Shown here: positions 2,145 through 30,825 of the stretch, piece by piece
Layout: each line of letters starts with the position of its first letter
How positions within the stretch are numbered: the stretch's first letter is position 1
Source of the DNA: Mesorhizobium silamurunense
GTDB lineage: Bacteria > Pseudomonadota > Alphaproteobacteria > Rhizobiales > Rhizobiaceae
Assembly: GCF_014843825.1 (NCBI RefSeq)
Contig: NZ_JHQR01000348.1
Span: 1-64,000 of the forward strand
Reading direction: 5' to 3'
Length of the DNA: 64,000 nucleotides
Position numbers and translations under genes: made by a program
Notes under the pieces: model-generated
Seen by the model: only the letters and a program-made list of their open reading frames with translations
What the model was told of the DNA's origin: nothing
Databases searched by the model: none

Positions 2145-2441
2145 ATGTCCCGCACCTGCGAGCTCACTGCCAAGGCAGTCCAGACCGGCAACAATGTGAG
2201 CCATGCCAACAACAAGACCAAGCGTCGCTTCCTGCCGAACCTGGTCAATGTGACGCTGATTTCCGAAGTGCTGAACCAGAACGTTCGCCTGCGCATTTCG
2301 GCCAACGCGCTGCGTTCGGTCGAGCATCGCGGCGGCCTCGACGCGTTTCTGGCCAAGGCCGACGCCAAGGAGTTGTCGCAGCGCGCCCGCCTGCTCAAGA
2401 AGCAGATCGCCAAGAAGCTCGCCGAGCAGTCGGCCGCCTGA
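2145..2441 (+). CDS. rpmB: 50S ribosomal protein L28
   Basis: The 98-residue basic protein begins [20 protein letters not shown] and contains [15 protein letters not shown], the conserved start of bacterial L28, which binds 23S rRNA in the large subunit. The length fits the longer alphaproteobacterial form, which carries a C-terminal extension with many Ala and Lys residues. A GAAGG ribosome-binding site precedes the ATG. It is monocistronic here, followed by a hairpin at 2473-2497 and then the regulated transporter gene. Confidence 0.97.
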
Positions 2442-2525: not shown

Positions 2526-2555
2526 GCTGGTTCCATTACCCAGGATAAAAAAATG
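2526..2555 (+). promoter_or_regulatory. Probable preQ1-I riboswitch overlapping the start codon of yhhQ
   Basis: The layout matches the compact class I preQ1 aptamer. A P1 stem CTGG (2527-2530) pairs with CCAG (2540-2543). The loop TTCCATTAC starts with the typical TTC and ends with AC just before the CC of P1. An A-rich tail ATAAAAAAA follows. The pseudoknot P2 can form between CAT(T) at 2534-2537 and (A)ATG at 2552-2555, so the transporter's own start codon is the 3' strand of P2. The AGGA ribosome-binding sequence also lies in P1/tail. Ligand binding would then block translation. A separate 7-bp hairpin (GAGCGTC/GACGCTC, 2506-2524) sits just upstream. This is a pattern match by eye, supported by the function of the downstream gene. 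Confidence 0.65.
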
Positions 2556-3239
2556 ACCTTCCTTTCACGATACCTGCCCTTCGTGGCCGCCATGGCGCTC
2601 GTTGTCGTGGCGTCGAATATTCTTGTCCAGTTCCCGATGCAGGGCCAGATCGGCGGCCTGTCGCTGGCCGACCTGCTGACCTGGGGCGCCTTCACCTATC
2701 CTTTCTCCTTCCTGGTCACCGACCTCACCAATCGCCGCTATGGCCCTGCCGTGGCGCGCAAGGTGGTGTTCGTCGGCTTCATGACAGCGGTGGTCTGCTC
2801 GATCCTCGTTCCGCCCTTCCTGTTCCGCCACGGCCTGATCGAATTCGAGACCGCCGCCGACCGGCTGGTGCGCATCGCCGCAGCTTCCGGCGCAGCCTTC
2901 CTCTGCGCGCAATTGCTTGACGTGACCGTCTTCAACCGGCTGCGCCGGCAGAGCTGGTGGCGCGCGCCGATCGTCGGCACGCTGGTCGGCTCCGTGTTCG
3001 ATACGGTGATCTTCTTCGGCGTCGCCTTCTCCGCCGCCTTCGCCTTTGTCGGACCCAATGACAGCTTCGCGCTGGAAACGGCGCCGCTGATGGGCGTGCT
3101 GCCTGTCGAGGCCATGCGCTGGGTCTCCTGGGGCCTCGGCGATCTCTCGGTCAAGCTGATCATCGCGGTGGTGGCGCTGATCCCCTACCGGCTACTTGCC
3201 GCCCGCTGGAGCCAGCCAGCAGTCGCGGTCTACCCATGA
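2553..3239 (+). CDS. yhhQ: VUT-family queuosine precursor transporter
   Basis: The 228-residue protein has about six membrane segments and motifs of the VUT/COG1738 family: LTWGAFTYPFSFLVTDLTNR near residue 45 and RWVSWGLGDLSVKLI near the end. E. coli YhhQ takes up preQ0 and preQ1 for making queuosine in tRNA, so the same role in the inner membrane is likely here. The ATG at 2553 is embedded in the probable preQ1 riboswitch, which fits end-product control of uptake. The stop codon lies inside a palindromic repeat. Length agrees with family members. Confidence 0.9.
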   Translation: MTFLSRYLPFVAAMALVVVASNILVQFPMQGQIGGLSLADLLTWGAFTYPFSFLVTDLTNRRYGPAVARKVVFVGFMTAVVCSILVPPFLFRHGLIEFETAADRLVRIAAASGAAFLCAQLLDVTVFNRLRRQSWWRAPIVGTLVGSVFDTVIFFGVAFSAAFAFVGPNDSFALETAPLMGVLPVEAMRWVSWGLGDLSVKLIIAVVALIPYRLLAARWSQPAVAVYP

Positions 3240-30748: not shown

Positions 30749-30825
30749 GGTCCCGTAGCTCAGTAGGATAGAGCGGCAGATTCCTAATCTGTAGGTCACA
30801 GGTTCGATTCCTGTCGGGATCACCA
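30749..30825 (+). tRNA. tRNA-Arg, anticodon CCT
   Basis: A full 77-base tRNA with CCA encoded. The acceptor GGTCCCG pairs with CGGGATC (one G-T pair), followed by A and CCA. The anticodon stem GCAGA/TCTGT closes the loop TTCCTAA, so the anticodon is CCT (codon AGG). The T arm contains GGTTCGATTCC. The 3' half from 30779 is duplicated at 50407-50454, showing that it served as the integration target of the island. Confidence 0.95.

Follow-up and report, generated by a model that had tools for sequence, protein, structure and literature searches.

The window analysed here, 64,000 nucleotides of a Mesorhizobium silamurunense contig, carries close to its start the gene yhhQ, downstream of rpmB (Table 1). 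The ATG at 2553 opens the reading frame of 228 amino acids that passes both TIGR00697 (110.5 bits; cut-off 50.95) and PF02592, and the product scores 124.1 of the 252 bits of a narrower model, NF008406, which is under the cut-off of that model. The match to PF02592 and the name of TIGR00697, 'queuosine precursor transporter', agree with the initial annotation, where the gene had been read as yhhQ, a transporter of queuosine precursors. Of 110 yhhQ leaders from the same family, Rhizobiaceae, 29 contain a G+C-rich hairpin, GGCGGGGGACRACCGCC, 66-166 nt before the riboswitch tail, and a form of it one base shorter follows rpmB in the window at about 2454-2471.

The stretch 2526-2555, directly before the coding sequence and including its first codon, reads GCTGGTTCCATTACCCAGGATAAAAAAATG. 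The initial annotation had begun the element at 2526, one base early; the element proper has the DNA layout CTGG TTCCATTAC CCAG GATAAAAAA ATG, that is, a 4-bp hairpin with a 9-nt loop and an A-rich tail, or as RNA CUGG-UUCCAUUAC-CCAG-GAUAAAAAA-AUG, 29 letters in all. The P1 hairpin, whose loop pairs with the A-rich 3' tail, gives the H-type pseudoknot of the preQ1-I class. The sequence and the orthologous leaders bear out the minimal class I preQ1 aptamer that had been proposed, and the CAT of the loop is complementary to the yhhQ start codon, in keeping with the proposed pseudoknot. A feature to be added to that reading is the Shine-Dalgarno-like AGGA on the plus strand; because it lies in and next to the 3' strand of P1, both ribosome signals are part of the fold. 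The folding energy is ordinary (z -0.15 for a 31-mer and 0.63 for a 51-mer), and a scan of 2380-2640 for promoters and terminators found none. A predicted hairpin at 2503-2528 overlaps the first two bases of P1 and could compete with it; its columns show no conservation among the family leaders.

Table 1. Features of the window, nearly all at the yhhQ locus, and clostridial leaders with the aptamer core (the latter in coordinates of their own sequences).
Feature	Position	Strand	Basis or remark
rpmB, upstream of yhhQ	2145-2441		TIGR00009
Complete element: minimal preQ1-I-like H-type pseudoknot with the start codon at its 3' end	2527-2555	+	sequence, model R1, family leaders
P1 5' strand, CUGG	2527-2530	+	pairs with 2540-2543; double changes in L207 and L219
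9-nt loop UUCCAUUAC (DNA TTCCATTAC)	2531-2539	+	length equal to the loops of 20 non-alphaproteobacterial yhhQ leaders
P2 5' strand CAU, anti-start-codon	2534-2536	+	complementary to ATG 2553-2555; CCU in non-alphaproteobacterial leaders
P1 3' strand, CCAG	2540-2543	+	pairs with 2527-2530; double changes in L207 and L219
Shine-Dalgarno-like AGGA, overlapping P1 3' strand, 7 nt before AUG	2542-2545	+	sequence
A-rich L3 tail GAUAAAAAA (DNA GATAAAAAA)	2544-2552	+	final A retained by 108 of 110 leaders in the pattern-free check
AUG, P2 3' strand and yhhQ start codon	2553-2555	+	frame of the yhhQ ORF
yhhQ, queuosine precursor (preQ0/preQ1) transporter, COG1738/QPTR family	2553-3239	+	TIGR00697 and PF02592 above cut-off
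tRNA gene	30749-30822		Rfam RF00005, 71.1 bits
Clostridial leader with aptamer core	L257: 5447-5475		
Clostridial leader with aptamer core	L263: 1109-1137		
Clostridial leader with aptamer core	L265: 167-195	-	

A covariance model built from 18 distinct forms in the family (R1) finds a single match in the source genome, with an E-value of 1.3e-10, and therefore the element is not a chance occurrence. The same model matches 266 of 297 genomes of the family (E up to 0.001), covering 99 of the 109 sampled genera. There is one match per genome in 265 of the 266, and the exception, G651, with two, has two yhhQ matches as well. The gene was found in 280 of the 297 (E up to 1e-20), and a cross-table made by hand holds 265 genomes with both gene and element, 15 with yhhQ only, one with the element only and 16 with neither (Fisher p 4e-17); in the element-only genome (G635) the match sits at a contig end. 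When a sub-sample of 18 R1 matches was read, 17 adjoined a YhhQ homologue and the remaining one ended at the end of its contig.

Because two of the 15 yhhQ-only genomes (G491 and G559) carry a form whose tail is 4 nt longer, the family genomes that have yhhQ but no proper element number 13. The leaders of all 13 were read, and six of these genomes are smaller than 2 Mb; G500 holds a degenerate copy, ctggttccattaccaagattaagaATG. In the small-genome members, G500 (L228) and three of genus g3 (L225-L227), the element is decayed or absent, and in a larger genome of genus g3 (L203) it is intact. In four genomes of genus g217 (2.8-3.8 Mb; L222, L223, L224 and L231) yhhQ is present, but neither a remnant of the element nor a QueF match was found. 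Loss of preQ1 synthesis has been published for Bartonella (PMC11570991); the loss of the element in small genomes fits this report and may be linked to it.

Beyond the family, an exact pattern that covers UUC loops only matched 29 of 397 genomes of the order. The canonical form is found in nine of these from the same genus and two from the same family; the other 18 matches look like chance, their tails being different. Searching 337 genomes of the class with R1 gave something at E up to 0.1 in 86 of them and, apart from the source genome, nothing above 26.3 bits. These weak matches were taken as chance, none of the 29 other loci that were fetched holding a YhhQ homologue. The element is absent from the 15 best-scoring yhhQ leaders of the order's other families. 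Since neither the class-wide search nor these leaders yielded a further copy, the element is, within the sampled genomes, a trait of one family. According to the literature, preQ1 riboswitches are for the most part confined to Firmicutes, and one or two lineages of proteobacteria also have them (PMC3766115).

The yhhQ leaders of 110 family genomes were chosen by rank of protein similarity (30 loci from the yhhQ search and 80 by place) and searched with a pattern in which the loop core, the run of A and the ATG were set. The element is present in 108 of them, L138 and L149 being the two without, and the 5' strand of P1 is CTGG in all 108, though the pattern left P1 free. In the 102 leaders with standard spacing, 23 of the 29 element columns are identical throughout. 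The flank is unconserved in these 102, the upstream columns carrying at most 0.73 bits and mostly less than 0.4, and the codons after the ATG show little conservation until the conserved part of the protein begins. A pattern-free check was made afterwards, in which the 29-mer of the window was aligned without gaps at its best place in each of the 110 leaders. It gave 0-5 mismatches in 104 leaders and 8 or 11 in four that have insertions, and the two element-free ones stand at 12 and 15; the same leaders read backwards always gave at least 12. At these places U5 of the element is kept in 109 of 110, the C, A and U of the loop CAU in 110, 108 and 109, and C13 (the specificity C, C2539, directly before the 3' strand of P1) in 109. 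The count of 111 out of 111 alphaproteobacterial rows for this C is imposed by the search pattern. Among the same 111 rows, the CUGG/CCAG form of P1 occurs in 109, CCAGG in 102 and an L3 of 9 nt in 106; AAUG stands at P2 in the window and in all 108 element-bearing leaders. Loop positions 2-3 vary within the family (UUC, UGC, UGG), so that UU follows the 5' strand of P1 in the window and 66 rows and UG in the other 45. The 3' strand of P1 is preceded by AC in the window (as UAC) and in 91 rows, and by UC in seven.

Two leaders carry compensatory changes in P1. In L207 it reads CTAG...CTAG, a double change at pair 3 from G-C to A-U, and in L219 CCGG...CCGG, a double change at pair 2 from U-A to C-G; both elements precede YhhQ homologues, and both sequences were picked by eye, together with L217, from 18 chosen, weaker R1 matches. 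Because P1 is almost frozen, covariation within the family rests on these two sequences. The comparison of orthologous leaders that the initial annotation had suggested, for compensatory changes in P1 and conservation of the CAU-AUG pairing, came out positive, with only these two P1 changes inside the family. Read in frame from the riboswitch ATG (from 1526), the YhhQ of L219 is about 53 residues longer at its N-terminus.

The leader of E. coli yhhQ is a crystallised type III preQ1-I riboswitch, a type described as almost exclusively gammaproteobacterial, or proteobacterial (PMC10622847). With E. coli YhhQ as query, 21 further leaders were found in a sample of 200 genomes, giving 22 from E. 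coli and 21 genomes in the phylum outside the class. Twenty of the 22, all but L242 and L243, have the form GGG-UUCCCU(C/A)(A/C)C-CCC followed by an AAAAGG tail, with loops UUCCCUCAC and variants that are 9 nt long like the family loop. P2 is exchanged in step between the groups, being CCU:AGG, on the Shine-Dalgarno sequence, in these 20 leaders and CAU:AUG in the family. A scan of named genomes for variants of P1 pair 2 gave 12 matches. Nine of these form at most two P1 pairs and were set aside; the three that form all four pairs are all clostridial (Table 1). L257 and L263 read CAGG-UGCCAUNAC-CCUG-NNUAAAAAAAUGG before QueT genes (PF06177, E 6e-44 and 7.5e-43), and L265 has no recognisable gene within the stretch read. 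The loop UGCCAUNAC (UGCCAU(A/C)AC) also occurs in some rhizobial rows, and L257 and L263 share with the family an L3 of 9 nt and a CAU:AUG P2. They differ in that their AUG stands at or just before a GGAGG-type Shine-Dalgarno sequence and is not a start codon, that P1 pair 2 is A-U, and that the gene is queT.

Over 24 distinct rows from the alphaproteobacterial, non-alphaproteobacterial and clostridial groups, 166 of the 168 P1 and P2 pairs are standard; 2000 shuffles of the rows averaged 136 and never exceeded 148, in a comparison that does not keep relatedness and in which the row patterns had fixed part of P2. Across these groups, both partners of the pair are exchanged at P1 pairs 1-3 and at P2 pair 2. 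Covariation in P2 is seen only between the groups, because CAU and AUG are invariant in the family and the row patterns fixed both.

In 102 of the 108 leaders YhhQ shares its reading frame with the AUG of P2, and in six it does not. All six have CCAGC in place of CCAGG, and hence no Shine-Dalgarno sequence in P1, together with AUGGA, and in each an ATG that is in frame follows 13 or 16 nt later; L217, with AUGGA and a frame offset, belongs with them. L140 has CCAGC and AUGGA, yet is in frame, and L119 and L141, with CCAGG and AUGGA, are also in frame. In seven of the eight CCAGC leaders the AUG is thus kept as a pairing partner though it is unable to start the protein. By these frames and motifs, the family shows what appear to be two expression platforms on one aptamer.

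With the E. coli type III riboswitch the element shares the gene family, the 9-nt loop UUC-NNU-NAC, the specificity C, the A-rich L3, a 3-bp P2 at the ribosome site and, as predicted, a translational OFF logic. It differs in its P2, which takes in the start codon (CAU:AUG) where that of E. coli takes in the Shine-Dalgarno sequence (CCU:AGG), in the place of its own Shine-Dalgarno sequence, which is in P1, and in its 4-bp P1 and 9-nt L3. In a 2024 review, type III is characterised by UU after the 5' strand of P1, AC before its 3' strand and AAGG in P2, and type I by UC before the 3' strand (PMC11625349). Having AC and not UC, the window element was not assigned to type I. Against the type III consensus, 45 of the 111 alphaproteobacterial rows have UG instead of UU, and P2 covers AAUG in place of the AAGG Shine-Dalgarno sequence; the element is therefore a type III-like variant and not a plain member of type III. 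The loop of type II preQ1-I riboswitches is longer than that of the family, whose tail presumably resembles the tail of the B. subtilis queC riboswitch. Type II (Tte and B. subtilis queC) is otherwise alike in its H-type pseudoknot, AC motif and A-rich L3, and differs in its transcriptional or partial Shine-Dalgarno platform (PMC11625349). When the loops are aligned with the E. coli aptamer, U2531 would take the position of the ligand-contacting U and C2539 that of the specificity C, A2552 would correspond to the ligand-reading A27 (PMC10622847), and U2536-A2553 to the pocket-ceiling pair.

Scanning with Rfam, whether at the gathering or at a permissive threshold, turned up no PreQ1 match to the window element, which accordingly stays below the gathering score of RF00522, one of the marks by which preQ1-I membership was judged. 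The validated E. coli type III riboswitch, used as a control, is likewise without a match, so the Rfam PreQ1 model does not define the class. The view taken in the initial annotation, that absence of a covariance-model match would speak against a riboswitch, is invalid for the same reason. On a clostridial queT leader the model gives 13.6 bits, compared with a gathering score of 39.

It might be argued that the conserved block is simply a strong translation start signal, made of a Shine-Dalgarno sequence, an A-rich spacer and AUG, beside which the hairpin is incidental; AGGA and AUG are well spaced at 7 nt, and the hairpin energy is ordinary. This is highly improbable. The 5' strand of P1 and the loop core, which have no known role in initiation, are equally frozen, P1 shows two compensatory double changes, and about one match per genome means that the element is not a general start signal. 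P1 and CAU:AUG also persist where the Shine-Dalgarno sequence of P1 has been lost and the AUG is out of frame, which argues against a mere initiation signal. Equally improbable is an operator to which a repressor binds, as DNA or as RNA, and in which CTGG-N9-CCAG would be an inverted repeat overlapping the start. Near-frozen P1 letters are indeed more usual in a protein site than in a stem, but the conservation also takes in the loop, the tail and the AUG, which are arranged as in the crystallised riboswitch of the orthologous gene (PMC10622847), and copies of the core precede QueT in another phylum.

A preQ1-I-like aptamer with a changed ligand preference (preQ0, queuine or another 7-deazaguanine) is unlikely as well, though less so than either of these, and would be most plausible in the branch with UGG loops. 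E. coli YhhQ itself prefers preQ0 (PMC10622847), and 45 of the 111 alphaproteobacterial rows have a letter other than U at loop position 2. However, this gene in E. coli is under a type III riboswitch whose affinity for preQ0 is about 138-fold lower than for preQ1 (PMC10622847), and in the family the positions of the C that gives specificity, of the U that contacts the ligand and of the A are all kept. Very probably, the element belongs to the preQ1-I class, within which it stands nearest to type III, and acts as a translational OFF riboswitch on the gene of the importer YhhQ; its conserved positions suggest that it binds preQ1. On the best reading of the sequence, the start codon would serve as the expression platform, with the Shine-Dalgarno sequence in P1.

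In the proposed mechanism of this OFF switch, AUG and AGGA would be open and YhhQ would be made when there is little preQ1. As preQ1 accumulates it would be bound between P1 and P2, where C2539 would read its guanine-like face and U2531 and A2552 its other edges; P2 would then lock, the start codon and Shine-Dalgarno sequence would be withdrawn from the 30S subunit, and import would stop. In the branch without a Shine-Dalgarno sequence in P1, the pseudoknot would form on AUGGA, a Shine-Dalgarno-like site before the predicted downstream start.

Control of a queuosine-precursor transport gene (TIGR00697) is a feature of the preQ1-I class, and an importer shut off by preQ1 would be a plain feedback loop. 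The source genome encodes QueC, QueF and TGT, and therefore it can probably make and use preQ1. In 28 hand-chosen genomes, 15 with the element and 13 without, strong QueF matches occur in 10 of the 15 versus 2 of the 13 (p 0.009); if three weak QueF matches are also counted the figures are 10 of 15 and 5 of 13, and the difference is not clear. The weak matches (22-28 bits, one just above the cut-off) probably represent a paralogue, because genomes with a strong QueF carry them too. Strong QueC matches occur in 8 of 15 versus 2 of 13, a weak match of some kind being present in all 28, as is TGT. Five element-bearing genomes among the 28 have no QueF match and presumably depend on import. Queuosine synthesis has been reported to be necessary for a rhizobial symbiosis, and in S. 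meliloti 1021 the host-cell phenotype of queC and queF mutants was rescued by supplying preQ1 (PMC3568095).

The regulation modes listed in the 2024 review are Shine-Dalgarno occlusion (indirect, partial or full), transcription termination and domain docking; start-codon occlusion is absent from its table (PMC11625349), and the McCown 2014 survey, which defined type III, may contain such sequences. The evidence tilts towards a separate, family-wide alphaproteobacterial subtype of preQ1-I, in which the initiation codon itself would build the ligand pocket and the platform would have been swapped in one branch. In such a subtype the A of AUG would pair with U2536 as the ceiling, so that the metabolite stacks on the start codon, and the Shine-Dalgarno sequence would be held in P1. 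In one branch CAU:AUG would have been handed over to a Shine-Dalgarno sequence, with the predicted start 13-16 nt downstream and the aptamer unchanged. The analysis adds an alphaproteobacterial, preQ1-I-like form; the public RNA model overlooks it, just as it overlooks the proven riboswitch of E. coli. The leaders, with either the start codon or the Shine-Dalgarno sequence in P2, may provide a natural series for asking which part of the ribosome site a switch of 29 nt must cover.
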